A stretch of DNA of 64,000 bases from Bacteroidota bacterium (GTDB lineage Bacteria > Bacteroidota > Ignavibacteria > Ignavibacteriales > Ignavibacteriaceae): the NCBI GenBank assembly GCA_021824145.1, contig JAKALM010000008.1, positions 1 to 64,000 on the forward strand. Direction: 5' to 3'. Below are positions 9,577 to 20,846 of this stretch, piece by piece (position 1 is the stretch's first letter; each line of letters starts with the position of its first letter). Below the pieces are notes generated by a model. It had not been told where the DNA came from and searched no databases. It saw only the letters and a list, made by a program, of their open reading frames with translations. Both the position numbers and the translations under genes were made by a program.

Positions 9577-12500
9577 ATGAATCAGATAAAGATGTTTAGG
9601 ATTTTGATGTTATTATTTATAATGATATCCCAAATTTCATTTGCAACAAATTATTATGTAGATGCAACAAATGGAAATGATAACAACAACGGTTTATCAC
9701 CATCTTCTGCTTGGAAAACTATTAACAAAGTTAATAACTTTTCTTTTTCCAGCGGTGATATTATCAGCTTTAAACGAGGTGAAACTTTTACAGGCTATAC
9801 TCTTACACCACCGATCGGCAATCTAACATTCAATGCCTACGGAAGTGGCAATCTTCCCGTAATAGATGGTCAGAATACCCTCACGTATTGTATTATTTGG
9901 GTTAATAAATCTAACATAACCTTCAGATCTATCAAATGCTTTAACTCCACTCTCGAATGCCTTGATGCCAATAACGCTAATTATCTTACTATCGACTCTT
10001 GTGTGTTTGATGCTAACTTTCATCAAGCTCAAACCGTTTACATTGGTTTATCTTATTATGTCCACATCTCTAACAGTGTCTTTCAGAATGCTGCCGGGTA
10101 TACTTACCCTCACGGACTCTATCTCGGCGGAGGCGGTTATCAAATTGTTGAACATAATATGTTCCTTAATAATCAAATGGCTGGTATTCATATCAACGTA
10201 AACGTTAACCCCAATGGCAGAGTTCCTCACCCTATTATCAGATACAATTGGTTTGAGGGTAATACCGAAGACTTCCAAGACCAAGCTACTGATTCCTTAG
10301 AGTTCTATTACAATGTCATTGTTGACAATCCTACTATCCCTTATGCCGACGGTATTATCTTTAGCTATGAAGCTGCTTATTCTTCTTTTGCACCTATAAA
10401 TGCAAAAGTCTATAATAACACCATTATTATGAATGATTCTTTGACTAGTCATTCTGCCATCTTTATCTACGGAAATTCTTATATCAACAACCTATCTTTC
10501 AAGAACAATATCATTTTCTACCTTAATTCTCATCAGACTAGCGGCTATTTTGTTTATCAACAGCCGGGAAGTGGTTCTATTTATTTTGACAATAATTTAT
10601 TTTATAGAACCGGCGGCAGCCAAAATAATTTTGCTTCTATCAAAGGTACTGCTTATAATTCTTTCTCTGCTTGGCAAGCTGCTGGTTATGACACTCATGG
10701 TTTATGGGTAAATCCTGGATTTAACAATCTATCCGCTAAAGATTATTCACTTATCTCTAGTTCTCCAGCAATAAATGCCGGTTCTAATGTTGGCTTAACT
10801 TCAGATTATTTAGGGAATTCAGTTTCAGGAAACCCAGATATAGGTGCTTTTGAATATGTTGGTGCAACCAGCATTCCCAATGTTCCAACTTTAATTTCTC
10901 CATCAAATAATGCAACTGGTACTTCAATAACTCCAACACTAACATGGAATGCATCTTCAGGTGCTACAACATATCGATTACAAGTTTCTACAAGCAGCGG
11001 ATTCTCAACAACTGTCTATGATAACTCCACAATTACTTCAACTTCACAATCAATTAGTGGTTTGTCCAACAATACAACTTATTATTGGAGAGTCAGCGCA
11101 ACAAATTCTTCTGGTACAAGTAACTATTCGTCAATTTGGAGTTTCTCTACCCTTGCTGCCGTTGCTGTACCACCTGCACCAACATTATCAAGCCCAGCCA
11201 ATAATTTAACTGGAATATCATTAAACCCAAATTTGTCTTGGAATGCATCTTCTGGTGCTACATCATATCGATTACAAGTTTCTACAAGCAGCGGATTCTC
11301 TACCACTGTTTATGATAACTCTACAATTACTTCAACTTCACAATCAATTAGTGGTTTAGTAAATGGTACAATCTATTATTGGAGAGTATGCGCTTCTAAT
11401 TCTGCTGGAACTAGTAACTATTCTACAACATGGAACTTCACCACAGATACAGTTACTACTGGACATGTTTATTATGTTGATGCAGTAAATGGGAACGATA
11501 ATAATTCTGGCTTAACACAAAACTCAGCTTGGAAAACCATAAACAAAGTGAATAGTTTTTCTTTTTCCAGCGGTGATATTATCAGTTTTAAACGCGGTGA
11601 GACTTTTACTGGTTATACTTTAACACCTCCAATTGGTAATTTAACTTTTAATACTTATGGTACCGGCACAAAACCTATTATTGATGGTCAAAACACATTA
11701 ACCACTTGCTTCGTTGGAGACAATAAAAATAATCTAACAATTAATTCTATAATTTTTTATAACAGCACTCAAAATTGTTTCAGCGCATCAAATTCAAATT
11801 ATCTGAATCTTGATTCATGTGAATTCGATGGAAATTTTCATGTTAGCCAAGCAGCAGTAATAAGTTCATATAATGCCAACATTAGCTATTGTGTTTTTAA
11901 GAATGCAGCAAGCAGTTCGTATTCATACCCAAGTGGTCTGCTGTTATATGGCGGTGGAAACCAAATTATAGAGCATTGTCAATTTTTAAATAATTCTGAT
12001 AGCGGATTAAAAATTTATTTTAACACAAATAGTCAAGTAATTCATCCAATTGTTAGATATAATTGGTTTGAAGGCAATGCTCAAAACTATCAAGATCAAG
12101 CTACCGATTCTTTAGAATTTTATTACAATGTAATTGTTGATGATCCAAATGTTTCATATGCTGGTGGATTAATTTTTACTTACGAGTCTTCATATGCCCA
12201 ATTTGCACCTAAGGATGCAAAAGTATATAACAACACATTTATAATGAATGATTCTATTACTCAGCACATTGCAATATTTGTTTATAATAATTCTAACATA
12301 ACTAATCTATCCTTCAAGAATAATATATTTCTTTTTGCAAATTCAAATCAAAACAGCGGATATTTCGTTTATCAGCAGCCTGGAAGCGGCACATTAAATT
12401 TTGATAATAATTTATATTTTAGAAACAGTGGAAGTCAAAGTAATTTCGCTTCCCTCCAAGGTACCAATTACAATTCTTTTAGTTCGTGGCAAACAGCTGG

Positions 12501-13332
12501 CTTCGATGCACATGGCAATTGGTCAAATCCATTATTTAATAATTTATCATCAAATAATTATTCACTTCTTACCGGTTCTCCTGCTGCTAATGCCGGTATC
12601 GATGTCGGCTTAGTATCTGATTATAATGGATATACAGTGCCGGTTTATAAACCCGATATAGGCGCATTCGAACATTCATACGTGCAAGCAAATATAAAAA
12701 CATTTTTAGGCGGACCGTATAAAAAAGGAATCATGACTACTTACCTTAATTCTCAAAATTTAATTCCACTTTCTCAACCATATTCATCTTCGCCATGGAA
12801 TTACCTCGGTTCTGAAAATGTTTCTTCCATTCCTTCGAATGTTGTTGATTGGGTTCTCGTTCAATTGAGATCAAACACTTCAAGCAGCTCAATTATTTCT
12901 CAACGCTCTGCATTTATAAAAAATGATGGAACAATTGTAGACTTAGATGGGATTTCTCCTTTGAGATTTGATTTCATTAATAATGGCAGTTACTACATCG
13001 TTATAAAACATAGGAATCACTTATCAATAATGAGTGCAGCTCCTGTATCGCTAGCAACATCATCTTCAAATTATGATTTCACAACATCTCAATCAAAAGC
13101 TTATGGCACAAATCCAATGATGAGCCTAGGTTCAGGGGTTTATGGAATGTACTCGGGTGATGGCGATGCAAATGGCAGCATAAATACAACAGATAGAAAC
13201 AATATTTGGAGAATAGAAAATGGATCTGTTGGTTATTTACCAGGAGATTATGATCTCAGCGGTGGTGTAAATAGTACAGATTTAAATCTTTGCTGGAGAA
13301 TTAATAATGGCATTACAACCCAAGTACCATAG
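9577..13332 (+). CDS. Secreted double beta-helix / FN3 / dockerin-like surface protein
   Basis: The 1251-residue protein has a signal peptide (cleavage near SFA, residue 23). A right-handed parallel beta-helix domain follows (about 26-428), then two FN3 domains (about 435-527 and 533-625), then a second, paralogous beta-helix (about 630-1030). A beta domain (about 1038-1190) containing a VDWVLVQLR stretch comes next. Two dockerin-type calcium loops close the protein: DGDANGSINTTD at 1195-1206 and DYDLSGGVNSTD at 1224-1235. It ends in TQVP and has no T9SS tail of its own. Beta-helices of this kind bind or cleave polysaccharides, but no catalytic residues could be assigned. The next gene encodes a cohesin-like protein with a T9SS tail, which may anchor this one. 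Residues 88-381 are encoded by a block identical to one in the gene at 14631. Confidence 0.85.
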   Translation: MNQIKMFRILMLLFIMISQISFATNYYVDATNGNDNNNGLSPSSAWKTINKVNNFSFSSGDIISFKRGETFTGYTLTPPIGNLTFNAYGSGNLPVIDGQNTLTYCIIWVNKSNITFRSIKCFNSTLECLDANNANYLTIDSCVFDANFHQAQTVYIGLSYYVHISNSVFQNAAGYTYPHGLYLGGGGYQIVEHNMFLNNQMAGIHINVNVNPNGRVPHPIIRYNWFEGNTEDFQDQATDSLEFYYNVIVDNPTIPYADGIIFSYEAAYSSFAPINAKVYNNTIIMNDSLTSHSAIFIYGNSYINNLSFKNNIIFYLNSHQTSGYFVYQQPGSGSIYFDNNLFYRTGGSQNNFASIKGTAYNSFSAWQAAGYDTHGLWVNPGFNNLSAKDYSLISSSPAINAGSNVGLTSDYLGNSVSGNPDIGAFEYVGATSIPNVPTLISPSNNATGTSITPTLTWNASSGATTYRLQVSTSSGFSTTVYDNSTITSTSQSISGLSNNTTYYWRVSATNSSGTSNYSSIWSFSTLAAVAVPPAPTLSSPANNLTGISLNPNLSWNASSGATSYRLQVSTSSGFSTTVYDNSTITSTSQSISGLVNGTIYYWRVCASNSAGTSNYSTTWNFTTDTVTTGHVYYVDAVNGNDNNSGLTQNSAWKTINKVNSFSFSSGDIISFKRGETFTGYTLTPPIGNLTFNTYGTGTKPIIDGQNTLTTCFVGDNKNNLTINSIIFYNSTQNCFSASNSNYLNLDSCEFDGNFHVSQAAVISSYNANISYCVFKNAASSSYSYPSGLLLYGGGNQIIEHCQFLNNSDSGLKIYFNTNSQVIHPIVRYNWFEGNAQNYQDQATDSLEFYYNVIVDDPNVSYAGGLIFTYESSYAQFAPKDAKVYNNTFIMNDSITQHIAIFVYNNSNITNLSFKNNIFLFANSNQNSGYFVYQQPGSGTLNFDNNLYFRNSGSQSNFASLQGTNYNSFSSWQTAGFDAHGNWSNPLFNNLSSNNYSLLTGSPAANAGIDVGLVSDYNGYTVPVYKPDIGAFEHSYVQANIKTFLGGPYKKGIMTTYLNSQNLIPLSQPYSSSPWNYLGSENVSSIPSNVVDWVLVQLRSNTSSSSIISQRSAFIKNDGTIVDLDGISPLRFDFINNGSYYIVIKHRNHLSIMSAAPVSLATSSSNYDFTTSQSKAYGTNPMMSLGSGVYGMYSGDGDANGSINTTDRNNIWRIENGSVGYLPGDYDLSGGVNSTDLNLCWRINNGITTQVP
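9669..9735 (+). repeat. Short shared tract, copy 1 (partner 14732-14798)
   Basis: 57 bp (9669-9725) are identical to 14732-14788. One C/T difference follows at 9726/14789, then nine more identical bases. The offset of 5063 bp is the same as for the 882-bp block downstream. The roughly 100 bp between the two tracts are clearly divergent between the genes. Confidence 0.9.
9838..10719 (+). repeat. 882-bp identical block, copy 1 (partner 14901-15782)
   Basis: Every base compared by eye matches 14901-15782, with a constant offset of 5063. The block covers 294 codons in frame, from Tyr88 to Gly381. It looks richer in C-ending codons than the rest of the gene: 10081-10140 has 32 G+C of 60 by my count. 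Flanks diverge at both ends. Confidence 0.95.
10945..11063 (+). repeat. FN3-encoding direct repeat, unit 1
   Basis: This 119-bp unit is nearly identical to 11239-11357, at an offset of 294 bp. It encodes the core of the first FN3 domain. The few differences are mostly synonymous. Confidence 0.9.
11239..11357 (+). repeat. FN3-encoding direct repeat, unit 2
   Basis: This is the second unit of the 119-bp repeat and encodes the core of the second FN3 domain. The high DNA identity indicates a recent tandem duplication or conversion. Confidence 0.9.
13159..13281 (+). other. Dockerin-like calcium-binding module (within the 9577 gene)
   Basis: Two loops fit the EF-hand/dockerin pattern D-x-D-x-[NS]-G-x-x-N-x-x-D: residues 1195-1206 and 1224-1235. 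Each is followed by a helix-like segment with an aromatic residue (IWRIENG and CWRINNG). The repeat spacing of 29 residues suits a type I dockerin-like fold. Binding to a cohesin is inferred, not shown. Confidence 0.75.
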
Positions 13333-13381
13333 TAACCATATGAATAAGATAAATAATAGAATAATAGAATTTGGAGTAATT

Positions 13382-14470
13382 ATGAACAATATATTAAAAA
13401 TATTTTTGACAGCTTTTGTAATATTGGCGCTTAATTTACAAGCTCAAACAATAGTAAATGGACAATTTGTTGTTACTAATCATAGCGATTCAATTTATGC
13501 AATTACAGTTCAGTTAAATACAAACACAGGAACTAATGGATTGGGAACATCAACAATCATATTTAATTTTGATAGCACATCTTTGTCATTCCCATCCACA
13601 CCGGTTAGTGGAACTGATTATACTTTTACAAACTTCAGTGGCGGAAATTATTCTCCGGCAACAGTAACGCATCCAGTTGCTAATCAAATTTGGATAAATA
13701 TCGAATTGTTAAATACAAACAGTGGTACTTTAGTAACACAAACTCCTGGTTGGATAGATGTCGCAACAATAACTTTTTCTATTATAAATCACTCTGGATC
13801 TTCTAACCTGAATTGGCAAACTTCAAATAATAACTGGGCAATATTTGATGGTAATAACTCAACTCTTTGGACAAACGGAACATTTACAAATTTAAATACA
13901 TCACCACTTCCAGTAGAATTAACTTCATTTACTGAAAATACAGTAGAGAATAAAGTAGAATTAAATTGGCAAACTGCTACTGAAATCAATAATTATGGTT
14001 TTGAAATACAAAGAGCTATACAAAGTGATAATTTAAAGTGGGAAAAAATTGGTTTTGTTGAAGGAAGAGGAAACTCCAACTCTCCTAAAACATACCAATT
14101 TATTGATAGCAATCCGTTATCTGGAAAACTTGTATATCGATTAAAACAAATTGATAATAATGGCAATTATAAATTCTCTAAAGAAATTGAAGTTAATTTA
14201 GCTCCAACTGAATATGTTTTATACCAAAATTATCCTAATCCTTTTAATCCCAGTACAAAGATTAAATATTCACTACCAGTTAGATCTTTAGTAAATATTA
14301 AAGTATACGATATTACTGGAAGAGAAGTAGCAAAATTAGTTGATGAAATGCAAGAACAAGGAAATTATACAATTAATTTTGATGCAAGTAAATTAAGCAG
14401 CGGAACATACTTCTATAAAATAATAAGCAATAAGTTTGTGCAAGTAAAAAAGATGCTGCTATTAAAATGA
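13382..14470 (+). CDS. Cohesin-like secreted protein with T9SS sorting tail
   Basis: The 362-residue protein begins at ATG 13382. This is preferred because a GGAG box at 13373-13376 sits five bases upstream and the reading then opens with a clean signal peptide (MNNILKIFLT, cleavage near LQAQ). Longer in-frame starts at 13307 and 13340 would bury that signal. Residues about 24-175 form a beta-sandwich-like domain that reads like a cohesin-type domain (pattern IIFNFDSTSLSF, later WIDVATITFSI). An FN3-like module (about 175-275, NWQTATEINNYGFEI) and a T9SS type A tail (last 80 residues: NYPNPFNPST, VYDITGREV, LSSGTYFYKI) follow. It is translated just after the dockerin-like gene, which suggests co-expression and possible partner binding. 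The cohesin call rests on pattern only. Confidence 0.72.
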   Translation: MNNILKIFLTAFVILALNLQAQTIVNGQFVVTNHSDSIYAITVQLNTNTGTNGLGTSTIIFNFDSTSLSFPSTPVSGTDYTFTNFSGGNYSPATVTHPVANQIWINIELLNTNSGTLVTQTPGWIDVATITFSIINHSGSSNLNWQTSNNNWAIFDGNNSTLWTNGTFTNLNTSPLPVELTSFTENTVENKVELNWQTATEINNYGFEIQRAIQSDNLKWEKIGFVEGRGNSNSPKTYQFIDSNPLSGKLVYRLKQIDNNGNYKFSKEIEVNLAPTEYVLYQNYPNPFNPSTKIKYSLPVRSLVNIKVYDITGREVAKLVDEMQEQGNYTINFDASKLSSGTYFYKIISNKFVQVKKMLLLK

Positions 14471-14508
14471 GTTCAATCTAAATAATATTGATTTTTCCAA
14501 AATAATAA

Positions 14509-14540
14509 AACAGACCTTACGAAAGAGGTCTGTTTTTTTT
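14509..14540 (+). terminator. Rho-independent terminator of the surface-protein operon
   Basis: A 9-bp stem, AACAGACCT at 14509-14517 with AGGTCTGTT at 14526-14534, has an 8-nt loop and runs into eight Ts. It lies 38 bp after the cohesin-like gene. Confidence 0.9.
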
Positions 14541-14630
14541 ATTTAATAGATATTTATGATATTATTTTTTATGTTAATAATGAAATAAATAACAAATGGC
14601 GGAACAACAATAATTTTATTTTAATTAAAC

Positions 14631-15857
14631 ATGCAAATAAAAAAATTATCTGAAATCTTAAAGATTTCATTTTTATTAATTTTTATTTTTTCGAAAGTAA
14701 TTTTTGCTAAAACTTTTTATGTCAATTCTATAAATGGAAATGATAACAACAACGGTTTATCACCATCTTCTGCTTGGAAAACTATTAATAAAGTTAATCA
14801 TTTCCCATTTTCGAAAGGCGATGTTATTGCATTTAAAAGAGGACAAATCTTTACTGGATATACATTAAGACCAAACAGAAGCCATCTTACCTTTACTGCT
14901 TACGGAAGTGGCAATCTTCCCGTAATAGATGGTCAGAATACCCTCACGTATTGTATTATTTGGGTTAATAAATCTAACATAACCTTCAGATCTATCAAAT
15001 GCTTTAACTCCACTCTCGAATGCCTTGATGCCAATAACGCTAATTATCTTACTATCGACTCTTGTGTGTTTGATGCTAACTTTCATCAAGCTCAAACCGT
15101 TTACATTGGTTTATCTTATTATGTCCACATCTCTAACAGTGTCTTTCAGAATGCTGCCGGGTATACTTACCCTCACGGACTCTATCTCGGCGGAGGCGGT
15201 TATCAAATTGTTGAACATAATATGTTCCTTAATAATCAAATGGCTGGTATTCATATCAACGTAAACGTTAACCCCAATGGCAGAGTTCCTCACCCTATTA
15301 TCAGATACAATTGGTTTGAGGGTAATACCGAAGACTTCCAAGACCAAGCTACTGATTCCTTAGAGTTCTATTACAATGTCATTGTTGACAATCCTACTAT
15401 CCCTTATGCCGACGGTATTATCTTTAGCTATGAAGCTGCTTATTCTTCTTTTGCACCTATAAATGCAAAAGTCTATAATAACACCATTATTATGAATGAT
15501 TCTTTGACTAGTCATTCTGCCATCTTTATCTACGGAAATTCTTATATCAACAACCTATCTTTCAAGAACAATATCATTTTCTACCTTAATTCTCATCAGA
15601 CTAGCGGCTATTTTGTTTATCAACAGCCGGGAAGTGGTTCTATTTATTTTGACAATAATTTATTTTATAGAACCGGCGGCAGCCAAAATAATTTTGCTTC
15701 TATCAAAGGTACTGCTTATAATTCTTTCTCTGCTTGGCAAGCTGCTGGTTATGACACTCATGGTTTATGGGTAAATCCTGGACTGCTTGATAAAAAAAAT
15801 TTAAACTTTAAATTCTTTTTGTCTATTATGTCACGGTATAAAATGCTCAATAAATAG
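14631..15857 (+). CDS. Truncated beta-helix paralogue
   Basis: The 408-residue protein has its own signal peptide (MQIKKLSEIL; cleavage near FAK, residue 27), unlike that of the 9577 gene. Residues 91-384 are encoded by the identical 882-bp block. After Gly384 the sequence leaves the family. The last 24 residues (LLDKKNLNFK onward) match nothing in the longer protein, so the end of the helix, the FN3 domains and the dockerin are missing. It is either a chimera made by recombination or a decaying copy. No terminator is visible between it and the convergent gene 38 bp on. A stable secreted product is possible but would be a helix without its final coils. Confidence 0.65.
   Translation: MQIKKLSEILKISFLLIFIFSKVIFAKTFYVNSINGNDNNNGLSPSSAWKTINKVNHFPFSKGDVIAFKRGQIFTGYTLRPNRSHLTFTAYGSGNLPVIDGQNTLTYCIIWVNKSNITFRSIKCFNSTLECLDANNANYLTIDSCVFDANFHQAQTVYIGLSYYVHISNSVFQNAAGYTYPHGLYLGGGGYQIVEHNMFLNNQMAGIHINVNVNPNGRVPHPIIRYNWFEGNTEDFQDQATDSLEFYYNVIVDNPTIPYADGIIFSYEAAYSSFAPINAKVYNNTIIMNDSLTSHSAIFIYGNSYINNLSFKNNIIFYLNSHQTSGYFVYQQPGSGSIYFDNNLFYRTGGSQNNFASIKGTAYNSFSAWQAAGYDTHGLWVNPGLLDKKNLNFKFFLSIMSRYKMLNK
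14732..14798 (+). repeat. Short shared tract, copy 2 (partner 9669-9735)
   Basis: This tract pairs with 9669-9735 at a 5063-bp offset, with a single mismatch at 14789. It covers the NGNDNNNG / SAWKTIN motif at the start of the mature protein. Confidence 0.9.
14901..15782 (+). repeat. 882-bp identical block, copy 2 (partner 9838-10719)
   Basis: This block is identical to 9838-10719 and in the same reading frame relative to its host gene. Divergence begins at once at both ends: 14900 T against C, and 15783 C against T. Confidence 0.95.
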
Positions 15858-19490: not shown

Positions 19491-20846
19491 TTATTTTATA
19501 ATCAAAAGTTTTTTTGAATCAAAAAATTTATTTGCTTCGATTTTATACAAATAGATTCCGCTGGAAAGCACTTTTGCATTCAATTTTATTTTATAACAAC
19601 CTGCTTTCTTAAAACTATTTTCTAGAATTTTAATTTTATTCCCCAACAAATCGTACAAACTAATTTTAACAAAAGTATCCTCGGGAATTGAAAATTCTAT
19701 AATGGTAGAAGGATTAAAAGGATTTGGATAATTTTGCTTTAATGAATATTCCCAATTATCAACAAAATTAATTTCGACAAATGAAGAATAATTAATAGAA
19801 CCATTAAAATCGATTTGTTTTAATCTATAATGTGAAATACCTTTAGTCGGTTTTTGATCAATAAAAAAATATTTAGTGGGAGAACTACAATTACCGGAAC
19901 CTTTAACAAAGCCTAACTTTTCCCAATTAAATCTATTTTCATTTTTACTTAATTCATTTTTTTCTACTTCGAATCCAAAGTTATTTAGTTCCGTTGCAGT
20001 CTCCCAATTTAATTGAATTTGTTTATTAACTATACTTCCTGAAAATTTAATAAGTTCAACCGGAGTTACGCTCTCATAATTTAGAACAGCATTAAAAATT
20101 TCTTGTACAAACTGAGGTGCAATTAATTCTGTTGCAGCAGAATTTGGATGATTGTCAGTTGAGTCCACTGCATATTTTAAAGGTAATGTTCCATCGTTTT
20201 CTACAAGTTTATGAAAGTAATCAAAGACAAAAACATTTTTAGGAAAATGCCCATACTCCATATCCAATCCATTAGCTAAAGTGTCCTTCGCCCAAGTGCA
20301 AAATTTATTTGATAGAGACGCTTCATTGCTATCAGTTTTATTTGCTAACATTGGTGCGTTAGTCCAAATAACAAAAAATTTATTTGGAAGTAATTCCATT
20401 TTTTTAATGAAGCTTCTCCAGTGCCATTTATAATTAAAAACAGATTTGCGGTCTGGTTCTAAAGTATCCGAAGCTGAGCCCCAGGAAGTCATACCAGAAC
20501 TAGGATAACATGATTTAATAATTATTAATCCATAATTTTCTAAATAAGGTCTAATGTCTGCAGTAGAATCTTGTCCATCAAAAATTTGATGCCATCTTAC
20601 CCACTCATTTGTCCATGGATTGATCGGCCAGTCTTCTTTTACAACCTTAAATTTATTTGCTGAAGTATAATTATGAGTTTGGTTGTAATTATCTATTTCT
20701 TGTGGAATGCTTGTATTACTTCCATTCGGTCCCCATATATAAGTCCCTGTTGAGTGAGCAAAAAAAATTCCATTTCTTAAATCAGGATTTTGCCCTAGGA
20801 GTAAATAATTAAAAAATAAAAACATTATAATAAAATTAAATTTCAT
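19491..20846 (-). CDS. Secreted SGNH-like protein with FN3-like module and T9SS tail
   Basis: The 451-residue protein starts with a signal peptide (cleavage near LLLGQ, residue 18). Residues about 22-250 look like a divergent SGNH-type domain. They begin with FFAHSTGTYIWG and contain DNHPNSAA near residue 230, which could supply the Asp-x-His pair. An FN3-like module (NWETATELNNFGFEV) and a T9SS type A tail (NYPNPFNPST, LSSGIYLYKI) follow, the same pair of modules as in the cohesin-like protein at 13382. It should reach the cell surface and may trim or transfer acyl groups on the exported polysaccharide (inference). Confidence 0.75.
   Translation of the reverse strand: MKFNFIIMFLFFNYLLLGQNPDLRNGIFFAHSTGTYIWGPNGSNTSIPQEIDNYNQTHNYTSANKFKVVKEDWPINPWTNEWVRWHQIFDGQDSTADIRPYLENYGLIIIKSCYPSSGMTSWGSASDTLEPDRKSVFNYKWHWRSFIKKMELLPNKFFVIWTNAPMLANKTDSNEASLSNKFCTWAKDTLANGLDMEYGHFPKNVFVFDYFHKLVENDGTLPLKYAVDSTDNHPNSAATELIAPQFVQEIFNAVLNYESVTPVELIKFSGSIVNKQIQLNWETATELNNFGFEVEKNELSKNENRFNWEKLGFVKGSGNCSSPTKYFFIDQKPTKGISHYRLKQIDFNGSINYSSFVEINFVDNWEYSLKQNYPNPFNPSTIIEFSIPEDTFVKISLYDLLGNKIKILENSFKKAGCYKIKLNAKVLSSGIYLYKIEANKFFDSKKLLIIK

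Follow-up and report, generated by a model that had tools for sequence, protein, structure and literature searches.

Docking between cohesins and dockerins is familiar chiefly from clostridial cellulose-degrading complexes, and cohesin-dockerin pairs outside the Firmicutes are already known. In the clostridial type II interaction, an X module plus dockerin (XDoc) is situated on the carried protein CipA and the cohesin on a surface-anchored scaffoldin, the anchor being to the Gram-positive cell wall. Peer et al., in 2009, are said to have described non-cellulosomal cohesins and dockerins outside the Firmicutes. For Candidatus Stygibacter (Cloacimonadota), the passages concerned with it in a paper of 2021 propose, from MAGs, a cellulosome-like cohesin/dockerin system that is surface-anchored by a tail of T9SS type (PMC8542988). 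In two Bacteroidetes groups, cohesins, dockerins, and scaffoldins are reported to be absent in the organisms studied (PMC5831590, PMC6247017), and the cellulases of Melioribacter roseus are reported without any of the three (PMC3534657); Pfam dockerins are reported in Alistipes, Bacteroides, and Bacteroidales single-cell genomes (PMC10266427), all as stated in the relevant passages of these papers. No description of a gene pair of an X-dockerin protein and a T9SS-tailed cohesin protein was found in the titles, the beginnings of abstracts, and the passages of the open-access literature searched.

Such a pair is situated in the window (i.e., the whole stretch of DNA analysed, 64,000 nucleotides), with the following features:

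9577..13332, + strand: gene 1, secreted protein, 1251 aa (ORF list, Pfam, NCBIfam)
12682..13329, + strand: X-dockerin module at the extreme C-terminus of gene 1 (alignment A1, 23 sequences)
13159..13194, + strand: dockerin calcium loop 1, DGDANGSINTTD (strict loop motif)
13246..13281, + strand: dockerin calcium loop 2, DYDLSGGVNSTD (strict loop motif)
13382..14470, + strand: gene 2, T9SS-tailed cohesin protein, 362 aa from its likely start (ORF list, Pfam)
13445..13930, + strand: predicted cohesin domain, modelled stretch (AlphaFold2 model, fold searches)
14231..14455, + strand: T9SS type A sorting tail, PF18962 (Pfam, NCBIfam)
14507..14536, + strand: terminator-like stem-loop 3' of gene 2 (stem-loop search, 13000-14800)

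The arrangement resembles that of the clostridial type II cohesin/X-dockerin complexes (2b59, 3kcp, 4fl4), in which a C-terminal X module and dockerin are likewise found on the carried protein and the cohesin on the anchor protein. Despite this general similarity, there are some differences: The anchor here is a T9SS tail, for the outer membrane; the X module of the window matches no Pfam family; and the cargo and the cohesin of this type are each single in this genome. Stygibacter is comparable in its dockerin-bearing enzymes and in a scaffoldin-like cohesin protein with a conserved C-terminal surface-attachment domain, whereas a single scaffoldin-like protein of 3,755 aa, in which cohesins stand in tandem and CBMs are present, is described for it (PMC8542988), in contrast to the one-cohesin protein here, which is encoded beside a presumed cargo that has an X module. 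From the non-cellulosomal cohesins and dockerins the locus differs by the repeated gene pair and the complementary distribution of T9SS tails.

Domains of the two proteins

The product of gene 1 starts, as judged by eye, with a signal peptide and further comprises beta-helix parts, a pair of fn3 stretches, a choice-of-anchor Q domain, and the C-terminal X-dockerin (Pfam, NCBIfam). The latter consists of a conserved X part of about 150 aa and the dockerin, which together make up the last 216 residues, with both calcium loops within the last ~60; the copies in the related genomes G012 and G009 are 77% and 65% identical, respectively, and 3 of the 23 X-dockerin relatives match Y_Y_Y of Pfam weakly. 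For the beta-helix cargo no enzyme family was recognised by Pfam, nor was an outer-membrane export signal recognised in the protein.

The preliminary description, made from the letters alone, had this 1251-residue beta-helix protein end in two calcium loops of dockerin form and lack a sorting tail, and both statements stand. The strict pattern used in this analysis, D.[DN].[DNS]G.[ILV]...D, which we take to be the dockerin-loop motif, has exactly two occurrences among the 28,637 residues of six-frame ORFs in the window (minimum length 60 aa), each of them in the tail of gene 1, and a T9SS tail was found in the protein neither by Pfam or NCBIfam nor by a profile grown from the window's own tail. 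Two strict loops less than 60 aa apart are absent from all 5,215 survey ORFs that lack an X-dockerin; the 125 X-dockerin ORFs contain two or more (48), one (59), or none (18). Aspartate occupies position 1 of loop 1 in 62 of 67 X-dockerin proteins and position 12 in all 67, and in loop 2 both positions in all 67. Positions 10 and 11 of the loops, which set the specificity of clostridial dockerins, are variable among these proteins. A helix follows each of the calcium loops (166-176 and 195-205) in the predicted model of the relative L046, such that the dockerin features of two loops with D at positions 1 and 12 and a helix after each are present.

Homology of the gene 1 tail to known dockerins, which had been suggested from its loops, is indicated by profile comparison. 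Searched against PDB sequences, profile A1 gives 28 matches at E <= 1, and 8 remain at E < 0.01 (e.g., 2vn5_B, 5.7e-4; the CipA scaffoldin 2b59_B, 0.009). Of the 28, 26 are chains named as dockerins, scaffoldins, or cellulase-type or carbohydrate-binding proteins of such complexes, aligned within the final ~60 positions; the two best matches carry the name 'Serine protease' only. PF00404 (Dockerin_1) is matched at E <= 1 by 10 of the 23 A1 members, the window member not being among them. Concerning the window's own proteins, neither cohesin nor dockerin is found among the Pfam and NCBIfam matches at E <= 1, and a single-sequence search of the PDB sequences yields zero matches, so that profiles and a model were required, and the first reading of the sequence caught something that these libraries miss.

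The longest ORF of gene 2 extends from 13307 to 14470 (+), with 387 aa counted from its first ATG. A likelier start is the ATG at 13382, which lies 49 bases past the stop of gene 1 and is preceded by GGAG at 13373. The protein begins with a putative signal peptide, MNNILKIFLTAFVILALNLQAQ (by eye), followed by a beta domain of ~150 residues, a middle region, and the T9SS tail, which had been proposed before and is recognised by both PF18962 (E = 1.3e-11) and TIGR04183 (E = 1.1e-11) above their cut-offs.

Cohesins are defined by a jelly-roll fold, and this fold is present in the AlphaFold2 model of the beta domain (from alignment A2 of 25 sequences, the window's first; pLDDT 89.9, pTM 0.86). In Foldseek, ranks 1-12 among PDB entries are all cohesins or cohesin-dockerin complexes (6kgc_A, E = 1.9e-5). 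VIA rows 1-46 are cohesins or cohesin complexes by title, the titles of 3kcp, 4fl4, and 2o4e being without the word cohesin; the best match reaches Z 14.3 with an rmsd of 2.3 over 136 residues, and the Archaeoglobus fulgidus cohesin 2xdh Z 12.5 with 3.1 over 126. The cohesin fold of the gene 2 domain is thus established by prediction, and the reading passes the refuting test set in the preliminary description, namely a predicted fold other than that of a cohesin. The domain could alternatively be a mere Ig-like spacer of a T9SS protein, its likeness to cohesins being that of a common sandwich fold: Beta-sandwich folds are widespread, the sequence identity between the model and the matched cohesins is 7-15%, and a cellulose-binding domain follows at Foldseek rank 13 (E = 1.7e-3). 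The sequence profile also matches solved cohesins weakly, since among the five PDB sequences matched by A2 at E <= 1 a phage tail protein (0.017) outranks the cohesin 4uyp_A (0.071), so that the domain is assigned to the cohesins by its fold and its relatives. We consider such a spacer highly improbable, however, as cohesins occupy all the leading places in both fold searches, the first non-cohesin in VIA (row 47, TTHA1873) having Z 9.6 vs 14.3, and as PF00963 (Pfam Cohesin), by which the window sequence is unmatched at E <= 1, is matched at that threshold by 6 of the 25 A2 sequences (best 2.7e-4). The earlier observation of a dockerin-like protein beside a T9SS-tailed cohesin-like protein is confirmed.

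Recurrence of the gene pair in relatives

A survey of Ignavibacteria for the same gene pair had been recommended, and the pair recurs in relatives. The window cohesin alone, used as query in 59 genomes (a search free of the bias mentioned below), finds 12 matches including the window. In eight of these (window included), a same-strand X-dockerin precedes the start of the cohesin by less than 150 bp; for the other four, the distance from the upstream X-dockerin is 1.1 kb in one and 3.6 kb in another, and two lack an upstream X-dockerin. In profile searches of 97 genomes, 17 of 32 cohesins lie less than 400 bp and 24 of 32 less than 6 kb downstream of an X-dockerin, a linkage that is biased because the loci behind profile A2 had themselves been fetched via the X-dockerin. 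These distances refer to 52 of 133 X-dockerin matches; most of the 81 excluded copies are partial or divergent, and one of them (G095:C20:13795-14091), which precedes a cohesin by 102 bp, would raise the count to 18 of 32. By genome, both modules co-occur in 16, the cohesin alone in 2, the X-dockerin alone in 11, and neither in 68 of the 97 (Fisher, 1.9e-9).

Starting from the X-dockerin, the association is looser. Among 80 further loci fetched by it, a cohesin follows within 700 bp in only 12 (13 of 81 with the window), 6 more of the 81 have a cohesin elsewhere in the locus, and for the remaining loci, many of them from Bacteroidales, none was found nearby. In the profile search, 11 of the 27 X-dockerin genomes have no cohesin match, which counts against the pairing, and these include high-copy genomes (G078 with 25 X-dockerin matches, G069 with 14). 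Of the genomes from which the 80 loci come, 18 were hand-picked for a whole-genome search; 17 contain A2-type cohesins (E <= 0.01), and 13 have a Pfam Cohesin match above the cut-off.

In the window's own genome, profile searches find one X-dockerin and one A2-type cohesin, side by side. A stem-loop search of 13000-14800 yields two stem-loops (shuffled sequence mean, 0.6), both at the site 3' of gene 2, and no terminator-like site between the two genes. A second dockerin, recognised by Pfam (E = 5.3e-10), is located at G000:C4:77513. The domains might accordingly be real and the neighbours not partners, the cohesin holding another dockerin such as this one and the adjacency reflecting shared regulation of surface proteins. 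This is regarded as very unlikely: The second dockerin gives no match to the X-dockerin profile, whereas the sole X-dockerin and the sole cohesin of these types in the genome adjoin, and the identical order within 400 bp is found in 13 genomes besides the window's.

Tails, cargo, and a proposed surface anchor

Across the 80 further loci and the window, T9SS tails (counted with the profile grown from the window's tail, i.e., for one tail type) are present in 20 of 26 cohesin ORFs and in none of 125 X-dockerin ORFs. Five of the other six cohesin ORFs carry an X-dockerin, and one ends at a contig edge inside the tail. The X-dockerin is situated no more than 4 residues from the C-terminus in 97 of the 125 ORFs. 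This position, together with the mutual exclusion of module and tested T9SS tail, as expected for alternative signals, would also suit a sorting signal (of T9SS type or other), in which the loops only stabilise and gene 2 is a neighbour or processing partner. By NCBIfam, gene 1 belongs to the choice-of-anchor Q group, a name given where the C-terminal anchor varies within the group, and the genomes with the module and no detected cohesin point the same way. A sorting signal is nevertheless unlikely, as it leaves unaccounted for the repeated cohesin-fold proteins directly downstream, the sequence match to solved dockerins, and the chains that possess both cohesin and X-dockerin; furthermore, the module lies more than 200 residues from the C-terminus in 6 of the 125 ORFs.

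Chains of the combined type are found in Bacteroidales, where four proteins of ~1160 aa contain Pfam cohesin stretches (L166, four; L167, four; L170, two; L171, four) and a C-terminal X-dockerin, in likeness to CipA-type systems. A fifth such candidate (L168), outside the Pfam scan, is cut by the edge of the fetched stretch. A T9SS-tail gene is situated directly upstream of four of the five; at the exception, L166, the fetched stretch begins just 172 bases ahead of the ORF. Three of these upstream genes were scanned with Pfam, and each matches Dockerin_1, no Pfam cohesin being listed in them. The candidates resemble primary scaffoldins, and they may act as adaptors that join several cargos to one anchored cohesin.

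Concerning the cargo, the relative G095 has 22 X-dockerin matches and two cohesins, and its 10 scanned X-dockerin proteins include GH9, DUF4838 with GH67N, a GDSL lipase, and a beta-helix protein. From 106 suitable X-dockerin ORFs, a cargo scan covered 67, namely the window's and the shorter ones; among the 25 of 44 families tabulated, several peptidase families together with FG-GAP repeats, CUB, and beta-helices are recurrent. The preliminary description had also spoken of a small cellulosome-like arrangement, a parallel that fits some relatives better and is overstated for this genome. The term cellulosome was rejected here, as there are one X-dockerin, one such cohesin, and no recognised cargo enzyme; no multi-cohesin scaffoldin was found, with one A2 cohesin and no PF00963 match over the cut-off in a genome that is 95% complete. 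Because of these single copies, the best reading for this genome is a surface anchor for a single cargo.

Docking was modelled with the X-dockerin/cohesin pair of the close relative L046 in tethered form. The mean pLDDT of 86.3 is good for the domains, but the pTM, 0.55, fails to show docking, and fold searches with the model return matches mainly to the cohesin half. Alignments A4 and A5, in which many cohesin rows had slid into the X-dockerin part, were left unfolded, and in alignment A6, 16-20 residues are misplaced in 9 cohesin rows.

In sum, it is probable that genes 1 and 2 constitute an operon for a cargo and its surface socket, in which the cohesin holds the X-dockerin at the cell surface. 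Because gene 2 possesses the sorting tail and the genome encodes SprA of the T9SS machinery (TIGR04189, E = 4.5e-262), its product would be exported via Sec and T9SS, be anchored to the outer surface by the tail, and there show one cohesin. The product of gene 1 would be exported by Sec, with the X-dockerin standing where a sorting tail would otherwise stand; its two calcium-loaded loop-helix units would bind the cohesin of gene 2, and the beta-helix protein would thus be held on the cell surface in a non-covalent, calcium-dependent manner. Given a signal peptide and no recognised outer-membrane signal, gene 1 protein would either be carried out by the cohesin or take another exit. That the T9SS-tailed cohesin is also a secretion carrier, which captures tail-less cargo in the periplasm and takes it piggy-back through the T9SS channel, is possible, if rather doubtful; one sorting tail would then serve many cargos, which would explain the lack of T9SS tails in the X-dockerin ORFs.

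If the reading of genes 1 and 2 as cargo and surface socket is true, new cohesin-dockerin pairs would become available for engineering, and assemblies of this kind would be missed by Pfam and NCBIfam in cases like that of the window. What becomes of tail-less cargo in bacteria with a T9SS would be open to direct test. A cohesin-dockerin surface assembly with X module and T9SS anchor would recur in Ignavibacteria, Calditrichota, and Bacteroidales, and its cargo would extend beyond cellulases and often consist of peptidases.

Repeats within and beside the beta-helix gene

Gene 1 of the pair (window positions 9577-13332, forward strand), which encodes the beta-helix protein with the C-terminal X-dockerin, is internally duplicated; similarity between the paired stretches is 73% across 583 bases, 80% across 184 bases, and 88% across 186 bases. 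Gene 3 (window 14631-15857) closely repeats, in truncated form, gene 1's first beta-helix part, with 95.7% DNA identity to it across 1081 bases; it lacks the X-dockerin, no Pfam domain is listed for it in the scan of window proteins, and it is probably a duplication remnant.

Dockerins and cohesins elsewhere

A second dockerin in the window's own genome (L002, G000:C4:77513-77659; PF00404, E 5.3e-10) is situated on a 563-aa protein, which is not matched by the X-dockerin profile and which, judged by eye, reads like a polysaccharide deacetylase. In genome G095 (C21:267500-311500; L152-L154), twelve X-dockerin genes, a GH9 and a GDSL lipase among them, follow each other in a row that also includes one T9SS-tailed cohesin. 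Partial or divergent X-dockerin copies, with at most 25 matches per genome, are found in G030, G034, G060, G069, G076, and G078, in which the search with the A2 cohesin profile yielded nothing save one weak match in G034 (E 7.9e-5).

Four Bacteroidales proteins of about 1160 aa combine a C-terminal X-dockerin with two to four Pfam cohesin stretches:

L166, in genome G105
L167, in genome G107
L170, in genome G113
L171, in genome G102

Directly upstream, a T9SS-tail gene is present in three of the four (the stretch fetched for L166 opens 172 bases before the reading frame). These proteins are scaffoldin candidates.

Surroundings of the gene pair

A Pfam scan of 10 window proteins revealed MBOAT, Wzz-type, and asparagine synthase domains in the region adjoining the pair (window 15896-44541), as well as a further T9SS-tail protein of 451 aa (window 19491-20846), for which no other Pfam domain is listed. 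By its predicted products, this region looks like an exopolysaccharide cluster, and since it adjoins the pair, the beta-helix cargo of gene 1 may act on cell-surface polysaccharide.
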